DNA from: Saccharothrix saharensis
Lineage (GTDB): Bacteria; Actinomycetota; Actinomycetes; Mycobacteriales; Pseudonocardiaceae
Length of the DNA: 64,000 nt
Assembly: GCF_006716745.1 (NCBI RefSeq)
Contig: NZ_VFPP01000001.1
Coordinates: 4,030,001-4,094,000 of the forward strand
Direction of reading: 5' to 3'
The position numbers and the translations under genes were made by a program. A model generated the notes under the pieces. The model searched no databases, had not been told where the DNA came from, and worked only from the letters and a program-made list of their open reading frames with translations. The number at the start of each line of letters is the position of its first letter. Position 1 is the stretch's first letter. Positions 21,230-31,299 of this stretch are shown here, piece after piece.

Positions 21230-21495
21230 CCGCGCTGACGGCCGTGCCGCGCCTGCGCCGGGGCGTGAGGACGGCGTACGACGAGACTCGGGAGAGCCAC
21301 GTGGTGCTGTTCCCGGAAGGCGTGCTGGTGCTCAACGAGACCGCGGCGGCGGTGGTCGGGCTGTGCGACGGCCGCACGTCGGTGGCGGGCATCGCGCGCC
21401 GGCTGGCCGAGCAGTTCGACGGGGTGCGGGCGGACGACGTGGCCGAGCTGGTCACGCGGCTGGTGGCGCGGCGGGTGGTGGACGTCGATGGCTGA
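21226..21495 (+). CDS. pqqD: PQQ peptide chaperone PqqD
   Basis: An 89-residue PqqD, the RiPP recognition element that binds the PqqA leader and delivers it to PqqE. It shows the winged-helix pattern VLVLNETAAAVVGLCDGRTS then AGIARRLAEQFDG. It begins within the pqqC stop (ATGA) and overlaps pqqE by eight bases, so C, D and E are probably translationally coupled. Confidence 0.93.
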   Translation: MTALTAVPRLRRGVRTAYDETRESHVVLFPEGVLVLNETAAAVVGLCDGRTSVAGIARRLAEQFDGVRADDVAELVTRLVARRVVDVDG

Positions 21496-22549
21496 GCCGC
21501 CCGGGGTGGCCGCGCCGTTCGGGCTGCTGGCCGAGCTGACCCACCGGTGCCCGTTGCGCTGCGGGTACTGCTCCAACCCCGTGGACCTGGTCGCGCGCGG
21601 CGACGAGCTGGACACCGCGACGTGGTGCTCGGTGTTCGACCAGGCGCGGGCGCTGGGCGTGCTCCAGGTGCACCTGTCGGGAGGGGAACCGCTGGCCCGC
21701 GGGGACCTGCCGGAGCTGGTCGGGCACGCGGCCGGGCTCGGCTGCTACGTGAACCTGGTGACCAGCGGGCTGGGGCTGACCGTCGAGCGGCTGGCCGGCG
21801 TCGACCACGTGCAGCTGTCCGTGCAGGACGCGGACGAGGCGGGGGCGAACCGGATCGCCGGGGTGAAGGCGTTCGGGGCCAAGCTGCGCGCGGCCGAGGT
21901 GGTGCGGGGAGCGGGGCTGCCGCTGACCGTGAACGTGGTGCTGCACCGGCTCAACGTCGACCACGTCGACGAGCTCGTGGCACTGGCCGAGCGGATGGGC
22001 GCGGACCGGCTGGAGCTGGCCCACACCCAGTACTACGGGTGGGCGCTGCGCAACCGGGCCGCGCTGCTGCCGACCCGGGAGCAGGTGGCGCGGGCGGCCG
22101 GGGCGGTGGCCGCCGCGCGGTCCCGGTCCGGGATGGAGATCGTGCACGTGGTCGCCGACTACCACGAGGCGCACCCCAAGCCGTGCATGCACGGGTGGGG
22201 CGCGCGGCAGCTGACCGTGGCGCCCAACGGTGACGTGCTGCCGTGCCCGGCGGCGGGCGTGATCGACGGGTTGGGCGTGGAGAACGTGCGGGACCGGCCG
22301 CTGGGCGACATCTGGCGCTCGTCGCCCGCGTTCACCGCCTTCCGGGGATTCGACTGGATGCGCGAGCCGTGCCGGTCGTGCGCCCGGCGCGAGCTGGACT
22401 TCGGCGGGTGCCGCTGCCAGGCGTTCCAGCTCACCGGTGACGCGGCGGCGACCGACCCGGTGTGCACGCTGTCGCCGCACCGGGGTCTGGTCGACGCGAT
22501 CCTGGCGGGCGACCCGACCGACGTCGAGCACCGCGCGGTCGTGCGGTGA
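21488..22549 (+). CDS. pqqE: PqqA peptide cyclase PqqE (radical SAM)
   Basis: A 353-residue radical SAM/SPASM enzyme forming the C-C bond between Glu and Tyr of PqqA. The radical SAM cluster cysteines are in THRCPLRCGYCSNPVD; the SAM-binding SGGEPL follows (VHLSGGEPLARGDLPEL). Auxiliary-cluster cysteines lie in PKPCMHGWGARQL, VLPCPAA and EPCRSCARRELDFGGCRCQA. Length and cysteine pattern fit PqqE well. It overlaps both pqqD and pqqB. Confidence 0.95.
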   Translation: MAEPPGVAAPFGLLAELTHRCPLRCGYCSNPVDLVARGDELDTATWCSVFDQARALGVLQVHLSGGEPLARGDLPELVGHAAGLGCYVNLVTSGLGLTVERLAGVDHVQLSVQDADEAGANRIAGVKAFGAKLRAAEVVRGAGLPLTVNVVLHRLNVDHVDELVALAERMGADRLELAHTQYYGWALRNRAALLPTREQVARAAGAVAAARSRSGMEIVHVVADYHEAHPKPCMHGWGARQLTVAPNGDVLPCPAAGVIDGLGVENVRDRPLGDIWRSSPAFTAFRGFDWMREPCRSCARRELDFGGCRCQAFQLTGDAAATDPVCTLSPHRGLVDAILAGDPTDVEHRAVVR

Positions 22550-23433
22550 AGGTCGTCGTGCTGGGCACGGCGGCCGGTGGTGGCGTGCCGCAGTGGAACT
22601 GCGCGTGCGGGCCGTGCGCGGCGGTGCGGTCCGGGCGGTTGCCGGCGCGCACGCAGGACGCGGTGGCGGTCAGCGGCGACGGGGTCCGGTGGTGGTTGGT
22701 CAACGCCTCGCCGGACATCGGCGCGCAGCTCGCCGCCACGCCGGACCTCGCGCCCGGTCCCGGCCCGCGGGACACGCCGGTGCGCGGGGTGCTGTGCACC
22801 GACGCCGAACTGGACCACACGCTGGGCCTGGGCGTGCTGCGCGGCGCGCCCGGGTTGACCGTCCACGCGCCGGCGGCCGTGCTGCACGCCCTGGCGCCGA
22901 CGCGGGCCGTGCTGGGGACGTACGGCGAGTGGGAGTGGCGGCAGGTCGAGCCCGGACAGCCGTTCGAGCTCGCCGGCGGGGTGGAGGTCACCGCGTTCGG
23001 GGTCGGCGGCAAGCGACCCCGCTACGCCGCCGACGCGCCCGGCCCCTGGGTGGTGGCCTACCGGTTCCGCGACCCGGCCACCGGCGGCGTGCTGCTGTAC
23101 GCGCCGTGCCTCGCCTCCTGGCCGGACGGCTTCGACGCGCTGGTGGCCGAGGCCGACGTGGTGCTGCTGGACGGCACGTTCCACGGGCCCGCCGAGATGG
23201 GTGCGGCCACCGGGCGGCCGAGCGGGCAGGCCGCGATGGGCCACCTGCCGATCGCGGACAGCCTGCCGCGGCTGCGCCGGCACCCGTCGACCCGGCGGAT
23301 CTACACGCACCTGAACAACACCAACCCGGTGCTGGACCCGGCGTCACCGGAGCACGCGGAGGTCACCGCGGCGGGCGCGGAGGTCGTGCCGGACGGCACG
23401 GTGATCGCGCTCCAGCCCGCATTGGGGGGTTAA
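22546..23433 (+). CDS. pqqB: PqqB, metallo-hydrolase of PQQ synthesis
   Basis: A 295-residue metallo-beta-lactamase-fold protein, thought to hydroxylate the cross-linked Glu-Tyr intermediate. It starts with the family text VVLGTAAGGGVPQWNCACGP; metal-site residues fit TDAELDHTLGLGVL and THLNNTNPVL. A CxCxxC-like zinc site is visible in NCACGPC. The GTG overlaps the pqqE stop as GTGA. As the last gene of the operon, it completes A-C-D-E-B; no pqqF-type protease gene is adjacent. Confidence 0.95.
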   Translation: MKVVVLGTAAGGGVPQWNCACGPCAAVRSGRLPARTQDAVAVSGDGVRWWLVNASPDIGAQLAATPDLAPGPGPRDTPVRGVLCTDAELDHTLGLGVLRGAPGLTVHAPAAVLHALAPTRAVLGTYGEWEWRQVEPGQPFELAGGVEVTAFGVGGKRPRYAADAPGPWVVAYRFRDPATGGVLLYAPCLASWPDGFDALVAEADVVLLDGTFHGPAEMGAATGRPSGQAAMGHLPIADSLPRLRRHPSTRRIYTHLNNTNPVLDPASPEHAEVTAAGAEVVPDGTVIALQPALGG

Positions 23434-25405: not shown

Positions 25406-27034
25406 ATGGGCACGACCGCGGAGTTGGCCGACGAACTGCTCGACCTGATGTTCACGCTGTCGCCGTTGGGGGCGACCGTCTACGGCGTACCGGGGTACGA
25501 CCACCTGCTGGCCGACCACCGGGCCGAGACCGAGCAGGCGGCACGGGCGCGGGCGGTCGACATCGCCGACCGGGCGCGCGCTCTGCCGGCGGACGACGAC
25601 CCGGTGACGCGTGCGGTGGTCGTGCAGCAGGCCGAGGCGATCGTGGACCAGATCGACGCGCTGGGCGTCGAGTACACGATCACCGACTCGTTCTTCGCCC
25701 CGGCGGGCGAGGTGCTGACGGTCATGCCGACGACGGTGCTGTCGGGGCCGGAGTCCGAGCGGGCCTACCTGGACCGGCTGGCCGGCGTCCCCGACTTCCT
25801 GCGCCGCATCGCCGACCGGCAGCTCGCGGGCGCGGCGGCGGGCCGCACGCCCGTCCAGCACCTCGTGGACGCCGCCGTGGCGCACTTGGACCGGTACCTG
25901 GCCGCCGAGGAGGACCCGCTGGCGCGTCCGGCGGGCAGCGCGGAGTTCGACGCCGAGCGGCAGCGCCTGCTGGCCGAGGTGGTGCGGCCCGCGTTCGCGG
26001 CCTACCGGGACGTCGTCGCGGGCATCGAGGGCCGCCCGTCGGACCGGGTGGGCCTGGGTTGGCTGCCGAACGGCGAGGCGATGTACGCGGCACTCGCGCG
26101 GGCGCAGACGACGACCGACCGCACGCCCAAGGAGCTGCACCGGACCGGCCTGGACGTGATGGCGAGCCTCTCCCACGAGTACGCCGAGCTGGGGCAGCGG
26201 GTGTTCGGCACGTCCGACGTGGCCGAGGTGCTGGAGCGGATGCGCACCGACCCGGCGCTGCGCTGGGGCACCGAGGACGAGCTGATCACCGCCGCGCGCG
26301 AGGCCGTGGCCCGGGCCGAGCAGGCCGCGCCGGGCTGGTTCGGCCGGGTGCCCGAGCAGCGCTGCCAGGTCGAGCCGGTGCCCGCGGCCGACGCCCCGGG
26401 CGCGCCGATCGCCTACTACTCGCCGCCGACGCCGGACGGCCTGCGGGCGGGCACGTACTACGCGAACACCTACCGGGTGCAGGAGCGGTTCCGGTACCAG
26501 GCCGAGGCGATCGCGTTCCACGAGGCCGTGCCGGGGCACCACTTCCAGATCACGCTCGCGCAGCAGCTCACCGAGCTGCCGATGCTGCGCCGGGTCGCGT
26601 CCGTGACCGCGTACCTGGAGGGCTGGGGGCTCTACACCGAGCGGCTGGCCGACGAGATGGGCCTGTACTCCGACGACGTGGCGCGGCTCGGCATGCTGGC
26701 GATGGACTCGATGCGCGCCGGACGGCTCGTCGTGGACACGGGCCTGCACGCGCACGGGTGGAGCCGCGAGCGCGCGGTCGAGTACATGCTGCGGAACACG
26801 CCGCTGGCGCTGGTCGAGATCGAGAACGAGGTCGACCGGTACATCGCCGCGCCGGGCCAGGCGCTGGCGTACATGGTGGGCCGGCTGGAGATCCTGCGGA
26901 TCCGCGCGGCGGCCGAGGAGGCGTTGGGCGAGCGGTTCGACATCCGCGACTTCCACGACGTGCTGCTGGGCGGCGGACCGCTGCCGCTGGCCGTGCTGGC
27001 CGAAGTCGTCGCGGAATGGGTTCGCACGCGCTGA
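25406..27034 (+). CDS. DUF885 family, putative metallopeptidase
   Basis: A 542-residue soluble protein of the DUF885 family. Hallmarks are YYSPPTPDGLRAGTYYANTY, then AIAFHEAVPGHHFQITLAQQ, whose HE-x4-HH cluster probably binds zinc, and AYLEGWGLYTERLADEMGLY downstream. The ATG at 25406 follows a GGGGG run. The family is likely peptidases or related hydrolases; substrates are mostly unknown. It follows the two-component system and is the only peptidase-like gene near the pqq operon, so a role in PqqA processing is conceivable but unsupported. Confidence 0.85.
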   Translation: MGTTAELADELLDLMFTLSPLGATVYGVPGYDHLLADHRAETEQAARARAVDIADRARALPADDDPVTRAVVVQQAEAIVDQIDALGVEYTITDSFFAPAGEVLTVMPTTVLSGPESERAYLDRLAGVPDFLRRIADRQLAGAAAGRTPVQHLVDAAVAHLDRYLAAEEDPLARPAGSAEFDAERQRLLAEVVRPAFAAYRDVVAGIEGRPSDRVGLGWLPNGEAMYAALARAQTTTDRTPKELHRTGLDVMASLSHEYAELGQRVFGTSDVAEVLERMRTDPALRWGTEDELITAAREAVARAEQAAPGWFGRVPEQRCQVEPVPAADAPGAPIAYYSPPTPDGLRAGTYYANTYRVQERFRYQAEAIAFHEAVPGHHFQITLAQQLTELPMLRRVASVTAYLEGWGLYTERLADEMGLYSDDVARLGMLAMDSMRAGRLVVDTGLHAHGWSRERAVEYMLRNTPLALVEIENEVDRYIAAPGQALAYMVGRLEILRIRAAAEEALGERFDIRDFHDVLLGGGPLPLAVLAEVVAEWVRTR

Positions 27035-27152
27035 ACGTCGACGGGTCATCCGGTCGGACGCAGGTCCGACCGGGTGACGTGACGGTGACCGGCAACGACG
27101 CACCGCGCTGCGTTCACCCGGCAGATGGGTGAAGTCAATCCGGCGCCGAACG

Positions 27153-27226
27153 TGCCCCCGACGGGATTCGAACCCGTACTGTGACTCTTTTAAGGAGCCT
27201 GCCTCTACCGGTTGGGCTACGGGGGC
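27153..27226 (-). tRNA. Aberrant class I tRNA-like gene, anticodon UAA
   Basis: A 74-base cloverleaf on the minus strand. Acceptor stem GCCCCCG/CGGGGGC, T-arm ACGGG-TTCGAAT-CCCGT and discriminator A are perfect. The anticodon stem GGCTC/GAGTC encloses loop CTTAAAA, giving anticodon UAA (27190-27192), which reads the leucine codon UUA. Yet the variable region is only five bases (ACAGT), whereas leucine tRNAs have a long variable arm. The D arm GCCC-AACCGGTA-GAGGC is one base longer than usual, with a bulge or mispair. CCA is not encoded. It lies 87 bp downstream of the SagB gene on the same strand. It may be functional but unusual, or decaying. Confidence 0.85.
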
Positions 27227-27313
27227 AGCGGGGAGCCTAAGCGGTTACCGAGCGTTCGTGGGGCAGGTTCAGAAGAAGTCCCCCGCACGGCTCAATGAGA
27301 TCCGCTATTGCGC

Positions 27314-28384
27314 TCATTCGGGTAATGGACCCAAGGCGCTCAGACCGAGTACGACTTCGTGATAAGCGTCACAGCCGAGTGCTTGTTCGACGAGCTCATC
27401 CCGCAATGCTGCGGTGAAGCCGATACCAAATCCCATTGCCGTAGCTACCAGATAAGCCGTTTGGGACAGATGGCCTACGTCCATTTGCACAACACGGTAA
27501 GCACGTGACGTGTCGTAACGCCATCTGGTCCGTTCGAGGACGCCGGTGTACGCGAGGACCAGCGGCGCGCGCCCCACCCAGTCCTGGTCGCCCGCCGCCG
27601 CCGCCATCTCGGCGGGCCCCCACGTCACCCCGACGGGCTCCAGCGCGTGCGCGAGCCCGTCGTAGTGGTACCACCCCGGTTCCAGCGCCTCGACCGAGCG
27701 CACGTGCGCGTACAGCTCGACCGGGTGCCGCCCGCCGCCGGACGGGCTGGTCTTGAACACCGTGCCGGACCGCCCGATCCGCGACCGCACCGGCGACGGC
27801 CCGCTCAGCACGGCCAGCAGCTCGGCGACCTTCGTCAGCGGCAGCGGCCCCGGCCCGAACTCGCGTGTCGTGCGGCGGGACAGCAGCACGTCCAGCAGGC
27901 CCTCCCGCGCCCACTTCGCCGTGCCGTCCAGGCGGGGCAGCAGCACCGCCGTGCGGCCCAGGCTGCGGAACGGCGCGGGCGGCGGCTCGGCGGCCAGCTT
28001 CGCGTCCAGCAGGGCGTCGTGCTCCTCCGAGCGCTGGTAGGGCGCGTCGGCGAGGGTGCGGCTGGCGAAGTGGAAGTGCCGCGCCGCCGTGCCCCACTCG
28101 CCCCACGCGGCGAGCAGCCGCCGTTCCTCCTCGTGCTCGGGCGAGCCCTCGACGATCAGCACACCGGCCTCGACCAGCTCGTCCAACACCTTGCGCAGCG
28201 CCGCCCGGTCCGCCTCGGCCAGCGGGGCGAGCAGCGCGTCGACGTCGGTGAACTCGGTGAACTTGCGGCACAGCAGCTCGGCGGTCTCACTGATCGCGAA
28301 CTGCCGGTGGTGGAGGTAGTCGTCCCACACCACGGCCCCGTCGGCGTAGAACAGCGTCGCGTGCTCAGCGACCTTTGCCCGCAC
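27314..28384 (-). CDS. SagB-type flavin-dependent peptide oxidase
   Basis: A 356-residue protein. Residues about 20-85 form a winged-helix-like N-terminal domain (FAISETAELLCRKFTEFTDV) that could recognise a leader peptide. The SagB/ThcOx nitroreductase domain (about 145-350) shows the FMN motif SRRTTREFGPGPL, SPSGGGRHPVELYAH, and GHLSQTAYLVATAMGFG. SagB enzymes oxidise azolines or other peptide bonds in RiPP pathways. It overlaps the ATP-grasp gene by 20 bp. The last 220 bp are clearly less GC-rich, and the third-last codon is TTA, a rare and often regulatory codon in actinomycetes. Confidence 0.85.
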   Translation of the reverse strand: MRAKVAEHATLFYADGAVVWDDYLHHRQFAISETAELLCRKFTEFTDVDALLAPLAEADRAALRKVLDELVEAGVLIVEGSPEHEEERRLLAAWGEWGTAARHFHFASRTLADAPYQRSEEHDALLDAKLAAEPPPAPFRSLGRTAVLLPRLDGTAKWAREGLLDVLLSRRTTREFGPGPLPLTKVAELLAVLSGPSPVRSRIGRSGTVFKTSPSGGGRHPVELYAHVRSVEALEPGWYHYDGLAHALEPVGVTWGPAEMAAAAGDQDWVGRAPLVLAYTGVLERTRWRYDTSRAYRVVQMDVGHLSQTAYLVATAMGFGIGFTAALRDELVEQALGCDAYHEVVLGLSALGPLPE

Positions 28385-29483
28385 CCAGCAGCTCCTTGAA
28401 GCGCGCCGCCACCCACCCGTGCACGGCGTCCGACACCCGGGAGTCCTGCGCCCGGTGCTCGAACCACCGCCAGTCGCAGTTGACGTTGACCTCCAGGAAC
28501 ACGTGGTCGCCGCCGGAGAGGAGCAGGTCGAACGCGGCGACCTGGAGCCGCCAGTGCCGGGCCAGGGCGAGCAGCCGGTCGGTCAGCGAGGCAGGCACGT
28601 CCACGGGCGTGACGCGGACCGCCTCGGGGTCGACCCACAGCTGCGCCGGGTCCAGCTTGTCGACCTGGAACGCCAGGCACCGCTCGCCCACCACGAACAC
28701 GCGCAGCTCGGTGTCGGAGGGCACGTACTCCTGCACGATCACCGGCGCGGACTCGGGCACGTCACCGGACCGGCTGGTCTCCAGCGGTCGCGGAAACAGG
28801 CCGTGCTGCATGCCGGGGCGCGGTTCGAGCAGGTGGCGGCCGGAGGTCTTGACGATGCACCGGCCGCCGCCGGGCCGGGTGCGGCCGGGCCGGGTGGTGA
28901 CCGTGGTGCGCGGCACGCGCAGGCCGAACGCGGAGGCGTCGGCGAGCTGGGTGAGCCGGTTGAGGTGGGAGGTGTTGCGGCTGGGGTTGACGTGCGCCCA
29001 GTCGGCGCGGCTGGACAGCCACTCGGCGACGGCGCCCCACTGGTCCACCGCGTACGCGCCGGCCAGCGTGCCGGGCTCGTGGGGCAGGGCGGTCAGCTCG
29101 AAGTGCCTGCGCCACACCAGCAGGGGGCGCAGCAGCCAGCGGTCGAGCTCCAGCAGCGGCTGGTCGGTGTAGACGGTCAGCGGCAGGTCCGCGGAGCGGT
29201 CGGCGTCGATGCGGGCCATCCGGATGCCGCGCTCGGCGAGCGCGATGGAGAGCTCGTTCATCTCCATGTCGGCGGCGCGGGCCAGGACGAGCACGCACGG
29301 CACGGGGCTGCCGTCGCCCTCGTCGACCATGCCGAGGCGGTGCACCTGCTCCTGGAAGTCCAGGCACTTCGGCTGCGACCGGAAGAGGTAGTCCTGGCCT
29401 TGCAGCAACAGCGGGGGCGGTTTCGCCGGTCTGGCGGCCTCGGGTGGGGGAACGGTCTCGTTCCCCCACCCGGAGACGGTCAT
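28365..29483 (-). CDS. ATP-grasp peptide maturase
   Basis: A 372-residue ATP-grasp protein resembling RiPP maturases of the MvdC/MvdD and SAV_5884 types. After an unusual 60-residue N-terminal extension it reads SRNTSHLNRLTQLADASAFG then LRVPRTTVTTRP, CIVKTSGRHLL (ATP-binding Lys), VIVQEYVPSDTELRVFVVG and the metal-binding FLEVNVNCDWRWFEH. Such enzymes join Lys, Thr or Ser side chains to Asp or Glu. It starts 3 bases after the stop of a 40-residue peptide gene and overlaps the SagB gene: one operon. The substrate is presumably that peptide. Confidence 0.82.
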   Translation of the reverse strand: MTVSGWGNETVPPPEAARPAKPPPLLLQGQDYLFRSQPKCLDFQEQVHRLGMVDEGDGSPVPCVLVLARAADMEMNELSIALAERGIRMARIDADRSADLPLTVYTDQPLLELDRWLLRPLLVWRRHFELTALPHEPGTLAGAYAVDQWGAVAEWLSSRADWAHVNPSRNTSHLNRLTQLADASAFGLRVPRTTVTTRPGRTRPGGGRCIVKTSGRHLLEPRPGMQHGLFPRPLETSRSGDVPESAPVIVQEYVPSDTELRVFVVGERCLAFQVDKLDPAQLWVDPEAVRVTPVDVPASLTDRLLALARHWRLQVAAFDLLLSGGDHVFLEVNVNCDWRWFEHRAQDSRVSDAVHGWVAARFKELLGAGKGR

Positions 29484-29486
29484 GAC

Positions 29487-29609
29487 TCAGTCGTCTTTCT
29501 TGCTGCAAAAACGCTTTTCGGCGGTGGCGTACTCCGCGGAGTACTCCGCCAGCGCACGATCCTCGATCTCACCGCGGCGAAGCTGTGCGGCCAGCTCCTC
29601 GAGAGACAT
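29487..29609 (-). CDS. Putative RiPP precursor peptide
   Basis: A 40-residue peptide: MSLEELAAQLRRGEIEDRAL then AEYSAEYATAEKRFCSKKDD. The first 28 residues are acidic and amphipathic, leader-like. The tail TAEKRFCSKKDD holds one Cys, one Ser, three Lys and two Asp, plausible partners for ATP-grasp cross-linking. GAGAGAGG lies about 8 bases before the ATG. The stop is three bases from the ATP-grasp start. No known family is recognised; the precursor role is inferred from size, position and composition. Leader and core boundaries are guesses. Confidence 0.72.
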   Translation of the reverse strand: MSLEELAAQLRRGEIEDRALAEYSAEYATAEKRFCSKKDD

Positions 29610-29665
29610 CGCGGTCACCTCTCTCCCCACTGATGCATCACACATTCAGGCGATGCACCAGCTGT

Positions 29666-29694
29666 ATTCTCGGGTTCACGTTACGCAATGTCAA
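29666..29694 (-). promoter_or_regulatory. Near-consensus promoter of the peptide operon
   Basis: On the minus strand, TTGACA (29694-29689) is followed after exactly 17 bases by GAGAAT (29671-29666), a perfect -35 and a 4/6 match to the -10 box. The start of transcription would lie near 29658, giving a leader of about 50 bases before the peptide ATG at 29609. The surrounding DNA is AT-richer than the window average. Confidence 0.65.
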
Positions 29695-29746
29695 GGCGAC
29701 TGGCCCTGCGTTAGCCCGTATGGGGGCTCAAGGTCGAGGACTCAGC

Positions 29747-29800
29747 CGGACGGCCCCGGCCTGCCACGCCCGATCGGCGCAGCGTGCGCGGGGCCGTCCG
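29747..29800 (-). terminator. ndh terminator hairpin
   Basis: Perfect 11-bp arms CGGACGGCCCC and GGGGCCGTCCG separated by 32 bases that may fold further, directly after the NADH dehydrogenase stop. It insulates ndh from the peptide operon promoter downstream. Confidence 0.7.
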
Positions 29801-29803
29801 CGA

Positions 29804-31129
29804 TCAGCTCTTGGTGGCCCGGTCGAACTCGGCCTTCGGCTCGTGGATCTGGCCGAGGGCGACGACCTCGCGGCCCGAGAACAGCGCCTGCGTCCAGTCC
29901 ACGAACACCCGGAACTTGCGGTTGACCGTGGGCATGAACATGACGTGGTAGCTGCGGTGCATGAACCAGGCGACGACGCCCTTGAACCGCAGGCCGAACA
30001 CGTCGGCCACGCCCTTGTAGAGGCCCAGGCCCGCGACCGAGCCCAGGTACTTGTGGAAGTAGTCCTTCGGCTGCTTGCCGCGCAGCGTGGCCACGATGTT
30101 CTTCGCCAGCAGCTTGGACTGCCGGATGGCGTGCTGCGCGTTCGGCACGCAGGTCGCCGTCGGGTCCTCCTCGGTGCGCGACAGGTCCGGCACGGCCGAG
30201 CAGTCGCCCGCGGCCCAGACCCCCGGCAGGCCCACGACCTGCATCGCGGCCGTGCACCGGACCCGGCCGCGCTCGTCGAGCGGCAGGTCGGTGTTGCGCA
30301 GCATCGGGTTGGCCTTCATGCCCGCGGTCCAGATGATGGTGTCCGAGTCGAACTCGGTGCCGTCGTCCAGGACGACGTGGCCGCCCTCCATGCTCTTGAC
30401 GCGCGTGTCGAGGTAGCACTTGATGCCGCGCTTCTCGAGCTGCTCGACGGTGTAGACGCCGAGCCGCGCGCTCACCTCGGGCATGATCCGGCCGGTGGCC
30501 TCGACCAGCACCCAGTGCATGTCGGACTGCTTGAGGCCCTCGTAGTACCGCAGCGCGTAGCGGGCCATGTCCTCCAGCTCCGCCAGCGTCTCGATGCCCG
30601 CGAAGCCGCCGCCGATGACGACGAAGCTCAGCAGCCGCTTGCGCAGCTCCGGGTCGTTCGTGCTGGCGGCCTGGTCGAGCCGCGACAGCACGTGGTTGCG
30701 CAGGTAGATGGCCTCGCCGATGGTCTTCATGCCGATGCCGACCTCGGGCAGGCCCGGGATGGGCAGCGTGCGCGAGATGGCGCCGAGCGCCGAGACGAGC
30801 ACGTCGTACTCGTACTCCTCGACGTGACCGTCGGCGAGCTCGACCGTGACGGCCTTGCGCTCGTGCTCGATGCGGGTGGCGCGGCCGGTGACCACGTGGC
30901 AGCGCTTGAGGACCTTGCGCAGGGGCACCACGACGTGGCGGGGCTCGATGGAACCGGCCGCCGCCTCGGGGAGGAACGGCTGGTAGGTCATGTGCGGCTG
31001 GGGGTCGATCACCGTGACGGACGCCTCGCCGGAACGCAGCTTCTTCTGCAATCCCAGCGCGGTGTACATGCCGACGTACCCACCGCCGACAATCACGATC
31101 CGTGTGGGTTGCGACTTCACAGCAGCCAT
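29804..31129 (-). CDS. ndh: Type II NADH dehydrogenase
   Basis: A 441-residue NDH-2-like flavoprotein passing electrons from NADH to menaquinone at the membrane surface without pumping protons. FAD-binding motif IVIVGGGYVGMYTALGLQKK is near the N-terminus, the NAD-binding FVVIGGGFAGIETLAELEDM is at mid-protein, and the FAD loop VGLPGVWAAGDCSAVP follows. The C-terminal region with hydrophobic and aromatic helices (VVAWFMHRSYHVMFMP) should sit on the membrane. The ATG at 31129 gives MAAVKSQPTRIVIVGGG; upstream codons are not conserved-looking. Confidence 0.88.
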   Translation of the reverse strand: MAAVKSQPTRIVIVGGGYVGMYTALGLQKKLRSGEASVTVIDPQPHMTYQPFLPEAAAGSIEPRHVVVPLRKVLKRCHVVTGRATRIEHERKAVTVELADGHVEEYEYDVLVSALGAISRTLPIPGLPEVGIGMKTIGEAIYLRNHVLSRLDQAASTNDPELRKRLLSFVVIGGGFAGIETLAELEDMARYALRYYEGLKQSDMHWVLVEATGRIMPEVSARLGVYTVEQLEKRGIKCYLDTRVKSMEGGHVVLDDGTEFDSDTIIWTAGMKANPMLRNTDLPLDERGRVRCTAAMQVVGLPGVWAAGDCSAVPDLSRTEEDPTATCVPNAQHAIRQSKLLAKNIVATLRGKQPKDYFHKYLGSVAGLGLYKGVADVFGLRFKGVVAWFMHRSYHVMFMPTVNRKFRVFVDWTQALFSGREVVALGQIHEPKAEFDRATKS

Positions 31130-31299
31130 ACACACATGGTCGCACCGGGTGGGGCTTTCCGGCGCATCGAGCGGGCCCGTTGTGACCACAGTCGCCGGGT
31201 GATTGCGGACACCCTGCCGCTGACCAGCGGGAGCCGGTGAACGTGCTGAGAGGAACGATCCAGACGGTCAGCTCGCGCTGAGCGTCCAGGCCCGGTTCC

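Follow-up and report, generated by a model that had tools for sequence, protein, structure and literature searches.

Here we describe a small gene cassette of Saccharothrix saharensis, found in a 64,000-nucleotide stretch (the window; contig NZ_VFPP01000001.1, positions 4,030,001 to 4,094,000) of a genome assembled as one 8.92-Mb contig. A promoter-like site, the gene of a 40-residue peptide, the gene of an ATP-grasp enzyme, the gene of a SagB-family dehydrogenase and a tRNA gene follow one another on the minus strand, the genes being separated by a 3-bp gap, a 20-bp overlap and 87 bp, respectively. A preliminary description of this DNA had given the same layout, spacings, strand and promoter, all of which we reproduced, and had read them as a candidate operon for a ribosomally synthesized and post-translationally modified peptide (RiPP). 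The features of the locus, in positions of the window, are as follows.

29804..31189, minus strand: NDH2-type NAD(P)H dehydrogenase gene, the apparently older neighbour of the tRNA, outside the peptide module.
29666..29694, minus strand: promoter-like site of the cassette, TTGACA-17-GAGAAT (pattern scan; aligned in 28 loci).
29635..29656, minus strand: conserved block in the 5' leader, reading GCATCGCCTGAATGTGTGATGC here and complementary to the ribosome-binding site (alignment).
29615..29620, minus strand: ribosome-binding site of the peptide gene, AGGTGA (conserved in the upstream alignment).
29487..29609, minus strand: 40-residue precursor-like peptide with a KKDD end (homologues, selection test).
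28365..29483, minus strand: ATP-grasp enzyme with a predicted graspetide-synthetase fold (profile and structure comparison).
27314..28384, minus strand: dehydrogenase of the SagB family (nitroreductase superfamily), an optional member of the cassette (profile match).
27234..27239, minus strand: -10-like hexamer TAGGCT just 5' of the tRNA (counted across loci).
27152..27226, minus strand: tRNA-Leu(UAA), the sole UAA tRNA found in the genome and probably a bystander (ARAGORN and Rfam).

A related ATP-grasp gene was present, at E < 1e-120, in 87 of 249 genomes of the family Pseudonocardiaceae, S. saharensis included, with a fragment in one further genome (G011). We fetched 60 stretches, all 13 kb long except for one of 11 kb; 58 of them came from 58 of the other 86 ATP-grasp-bearing genomes. 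A second set of 78 named loci was drawn from the best 80 of 135 matches; these are mostly the same species as the fetched set and are not independent of it. Among those best 80, the nearest named loci belong to Saccharothrix, at up to 98% identity. Outside the family the enzyme is rare: of 394 genomes across the class, 9 gave a match at 1e-20, S. saharensis again included. Phage records held two partial matches (32–33% identity over 31–36% coverage), one annotated as RimK-like, and the peptide was not found in plasmid records.

The peptide gene accompanies the enzyme, and the two form a peptide-modification module that changes little among many soil actinomycetes. We found a related peptide gene upstream of ATP-grasp in all 77 loci used for peptide statistics (L151–L227, 41 distinct proteins), the conservation that the preliminary description had asked about. 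The chain ends in almost the same way in all of them: K at position -4 in 76 of 77 loci (the exception carries R, giving RKDD), and K at -3, D at -2 and D at -1 in every one. The ratio pN/pS was 0.27 for the 38 distinct genes encoding 40-residue peptides and 0.38 for the 25 distinct genes encoding 39-residue ones, and pN itself was low in the leader (0.08 and 0.20 for the 40- and 39-residue forms), higher in the middle (around 0.31) and lowest in the tail (0.06 and 0.03). The peptide gene is thus real and under purifying selection. The distance to the ATP-grasp gene can be larger than in the window: in an Actinosynnema locus (L181) the peptide starts 671 nt ahead of the ATP-grasp match, and two other loci (L067 and L068) have similar distances. 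The peptide is predicted to form two helices (residues 3–12 and 18–37), with pLDDT values of 79–85 for the blocks of residues 1–30 when modelled in line with the enzyme.

Signals for expression lie upstream. The promoter-like site was observed once, against a mean of 0.1 in shuffled sequence, and TTGAC occurs no more than 150 nt upstream of the peptide gene in 75 of 77 loci, with a -10-like element also conserved. Between them and the gene, a near-invariant leader block, CACCTGAA (29615–29656 region), is able to pair with the ribosome-binding site AGGTGA. Each pair of this hairpin is retained in 24–28 of 28 aligned sequences, and none of the pairs has both sides changed in these sequences; the block is possibly a DNA operator or an RNA element that controls translation. 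We saw no terminator-like site in 27000–29850, as had been noted before for the part between the oxidase and the tRNA, although shuffled sequences average only 1.3, so this carries weak information. We also considered control of the bldA type: neither the peptide gene nor the ATP-grasp gene of the window contains a TTA codon, and 17 of 68 ATP-grasp genes do.

The ATP-grasp enzyme is predicted, by profile and by structural comparison of its model, to adopt the fold of graspetide synthetases (MdnB/C, AMdnB, PsnB, CdnC and PruB). It differs from them in that the structural alignments give only about 17–22% identity, its scores lie far below all NCBIfam cut-offs, and no known core motif was recognized here. 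RimK and LysX-ArgX, ligases that attach amino acids to the carboxylates of proteins or carriers, share the ATP-grasp fold, but their structural scores were lower and the RimK model TIGR00768 gave 16.9 bits against a cut-off of 143. A conserved core beside an ATP-grasp gene that offers a Ser, Thr or Lys donor together with an Asp or Glu acceptor is the mark of a graspetide precursor, and the KKDD tail provides both. The invariable upstream peptide, its purifying selection and the modelled fold thus support the RiPP-type operon first proposed.

The third protein matches the SagB model TIGR03605 with 109 bits (cut-off 78.4) and Pfam Nitroreductase with 74.8 (cut-off 23.5). A full-length SagB gene stands beside ATP-grasp in only 18 of the 58 close-family loci and is absent from 40, with one locus (L060) holding a remnant. 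The preliminary description had proposed that the peptide tail is cross-linked and then oxidized; the frequent absence of SagB shows that the cassette does not depend on a neighbouring SagB for oxidation and that SagB acts in a later or optional step. A passing score with TIGR03605, along with Cys, Ser or Thr in some tails, might suggest an azole-type pathway in which SagB oxidizes azolines on the peptide. Linear azol(in)e clusters, however, need a YcaO cyclodehydratase in the locus, whereas the two YcaO genes of this genome both lie outside the window, the nearer about 210 kb away; Cys occurs in only 13 of 77 peptides, and SagB itself is so often missing that we regard this pathway as highly improbable.

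The 3' end of SagB has features of its own. Over the last 75 or so codons (27317–27541), third-position GC falls from about 96% to 54%, as it does in seven of seven Saccharothrix genes, and fourfold sites in codons 321–340 are 81% identical, against about 31% expected from composition. The L060 locus, having lost most of SagB, retains a degraded copy of this stretch. A general rule that a gene preceding a tRNA becomes AT-rich at its 3' end was refuted by counts across SagB, ATP-grasp and NDH2 genes: a third-position GC drop of more than 0.15 was seen in all seven Saccharothrix SagB genes, in two of 11 other SagB genes and in one of 18 ATP-grasp genes followed by SagB; of the 40 ATP-grasp and 23 NDH2 genes directly before the tRNA, none showed it. 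Near the stop of SagB, at codon 354 (27323–27325), is a TTA codon, very rare in such GC-rich DNA; 13 of 18 related genes carry one, 12 of them at codon 354 and the other, a longer gene, at codon 359. It lies just upstream of the sole tRNA that reads TTA.

That tRNA was identified by both ARAGORN and Rfam (56.2 bits) as a 75-nt tRNA-Leu(UAA). It had been called odd, a description that does not hold: among 51 tRNA matches typed in the genome there are five Leu isoacceptors, one of them UAA, and three of the five (UAA, UAG and CAA) have a short variable arm. Of 34 family genomes searched, 33 had a short-form UAA tRNA, and PMC6582537 describes a short-armed tRNA-Leu(UAG) in some mycobacteria.

Within the family the order NDH2, ATP-grasp, (SagB), tRNA-Leu(UAA) holds in 58 of the 60 fetched loci, comprising all 58 close-family stretches; BLAST placed the peptide upstream of ATP-grasp in 57 of these 58, and in the remaining one (L099) it is visible in the DNA. 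The other two stretches are distant relatives (L111 and L112, 37% and 32%) with no match to the tRNA or NDH2. Among the named loci the tRNA is present in 75 of 78; two of the others (L175 and L223) are contig ends and the third, L228 of Actinomadura sp. DC4, is a triplet that lacks it. The gene that we take to be NDH2, for which NCBIfam gives only pyridine-nucleotide oxidoreductase matches below cut-off, proved informative about this linkage. We sampled 30 of the 162 family genomes that gave no strong ATP-grasp match (20 without any match, nine with a weak one, and G192), plus four positive controls; 26 of the 30 yielded a locus. In 22 of these 26 the tRNA has NDH2 upstream on its own strand; in one (L134) NDH2 is adjacent and inverted, and in L123, L131 and L144 it was not found within 1.5 kb. 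In another family of the order, an NDH2 relative (1e-100) was found in 5 of 61 genomes, four of them with tRNA-Leu(UAA) just downstream. The NDH2–tRNA pair therefore looks older, with the cassette inserted between its members, and the tRNA was probably there before the cassette. In a tree of 87 NDH2 sequences, cassette-less genomes fall at three or more separate spots among the cassette-bearing ones (supports 0.14 to 0.999), a pattern that fits one gain of the cassette and several losses, although some supports are low. The peptide and ATP-grasp pair is inherited vertically.

More distant relatives separate the triplet from the tRNA. SagB relatives were present at E 1e-40 in 32 of 250 genomes from a family of another order, and we took 20 stretches, 19 from that family and one from G192. 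Six of the 20 (L259, L260, L261, L262, L277 and L273) hold a related ATP-grasp gene; that of L273 has 31% identity and no matching peptide. Five distant peptide/ATP-grasp/SagB triplets (G192, G554, Actinomadura DC4, G806 and G700) showed no tRNA in stretches of 9–10 kb. Further distant ATP-grasp relatives (L112 and L114–L120) had no SagB match in the stretches examined and were not counted as triplets. The five peptides are 39–53 residues long and end in KKDN, CKSCHGG, CKGCHGG, CAKTHC and CNKTHC. Against the KKDD profile the KKDN peptide scored 6e-6 and the G192 peptide a weak 0.019, whereas the values for the rest (0.94, 3.3 and 9.8) were not significant; kinship of the leaders of the non-KKDN peptides is only suggested by these comparisons. 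The tails of L277 (G192; CKSCHGG) and L259 (G554; CKGCHGG) contain CxxCH, the pattern of c-type haem proteins, perhaps by chance.

The question whether the tRNA travels with the triplet thus has a divided answer, yes in the 58 loci of the family and no in the five distant triplets, and the NDH2–tRNA neighbourhood also exists without any cassette. Both observations point to the tRNA as a bystander, one of the two roles considered for it before, with the linkage explained by an older gene order and not by the other, the supply of aminoacyl groups. The adjacent, same-strand tRNA in all 58 close loci would suit a pathway like those of PEARLs, in which tRNA-Leu would donate leucine, or only the leucine nitrogen, to the end of the peptide. 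PEARLs resemble the present system in their small scaffold peptide and carboxylate activation, and PMC11117183 gives a proposed origin of PEARLs from ATP-grasp enzymes, with one PEARL using Leu-tRNA. But the LanB-type ligase gene expected at a PEARL locus is absent from the window, the nearest being about 2.7 Mb away (Lant_dehydr_N matches fall at 0.29 and 1.28 Mb of the genome, the window at 4.03–4.09 Mb), and the only UAA tRNA of the genome must serve translation, which leaves such a role very remote. Among loci with the cassette, 34 of 58 have a -10-like hexamer just before the tRNA; among those without it, 19 of 26 do, against 33 of 16,800 random 20-base stretches. A promoter of its own is likely for the tRNA at many loci.

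The association of a precursor, ATP-grasp and SagB is in print. The main text of PMC8939145 describes it as an uncharacterized association in branch 6 of the ATP-grasp enzymes: the precursors, clusters 367 and 1115, lack GG and clear P-h-h motifs, most come with a SagB-like enzyme, and the branch is said to act perhaps on RiPPs that are not graspetides. Our locus is similar in uniting a small precursor-like protein, an ATP-grasp enzyme and a SagB-like nitroreductase without GG or a clear P-h-h motif; as far as that main text allows comparison, it differs in that SagB is optional and the pair vertically inherited. KKDD, tRNA and Saccharo are not mentioned there. The earlier view of an undescribed class therefore holds only in part: the association is published, whereas the vertically inherited KKDD family looks new, since our literature search, made in openly readable sources and, for PMC8939145, in the main text, found no paper on it or on its tRNA linkage. 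Elsewhere in the window, at 21488–23433 on the plus strand, are PQQ biosynthesis genes with PqqE (TIGR02109, 500 bits) and PqqB (TIGR02108, 341 bits) both above cut-off.

Taken together, the genomic comparisons suggest that the locus is very probably a RiPP-type module with a bystander tRNA. Given such a module, the chance that its product is a Lys-carboxylate isopeptide seems roughly even, and a vertically inherited RiPP-type cassette that forms this bond through the KKDD tail is our best explanation as a whole, held tentatively at a little less than even. The ATP-grasp enzyme would bind the peptide leader and phosphorylate a carboxylate in the KKDD tail, which would then be joined to a Lys side-chain amine to give an isopeptide or lactam, as in graspetides; SagB, where present, would oxidize the product, and the tRNA, at least in the window, would use its own promoter.

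Several observations weigh against this explanation. About half or more of the known graspetide precursors have a leader motif and a GG-type cleavage site; here a GG site is found in 0 of 77 peptides, the leader motif P-h-h-x(1,2)-h occurs in 42 of 77 loci if Ala is counted as hydrophobic and in none otherwise, and the peptide of the window has no Pro at all. A highly conserved, predicted two-helix chain without GG would also fit a small regulatory or structural protein that is not a substrate of the enzyme; a conserved leader and a fixed tail on either side of a variable middle nonetheless resemble a substrate, and in the distant triplets the tail changes while ATP-grasp and SagB persist, which makes that role improbable. 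The tRNA linkage is near-perfect within the family, and the -10-like hexamer is lacking in 24 of 58 cassette loci, including the Saccharopolyspora examined. Of the five distant peptides, the KKDN one alone clearly fits the KKDD profile, and four of the five tails have no acidic residue in their last 11–24 positions, so that a side-chain ring there would have to use the C-terminal carboxylate or an acceptor further away. Such tails leave room for a different reaction, in which ATP-grasp activates the C-terminal α-carboxylate (or terminal Asp) and joins an outside amine or amino acid, with the peptide as a carrier or capped signal. RimK and LysX do this with their protein substrates; we think it rather unlikely here, though a serious alternative to an isopeptide.

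Because no further gene is conserved in the interval from NDH2 to the tRNA and the cassette itself is so well conserved, an internal signal, carrier or cofactor is more likely as the product than an antibiotic. A bolder proposal, which we consider doubtful, is a family-wide, vertically inherited non-antibiotic RiPP that is made by activating the C-terminal carboxylate of a KKDD carrier and serves Pseudonocardiaceae as a conserved signal or cofactor, its distant CKxCHGG, C(A/N)KTHC and KKDN cousins belonging with it to one larger ATP-grasp/SagB class outside the side-chain-ring graspetides. For genome mining more widely, a tight, long-kept tRNA linkage to a biosynthetic cassette can reflect inherited gene order and calls for caution. 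RiPP precursors usually change fast; a precursor with an almost fixed tail, kept through many genera of Pseudonocardiaceae with only ATP-grasp, with or without SagB, conserved beside it, points to a role inside the producer.
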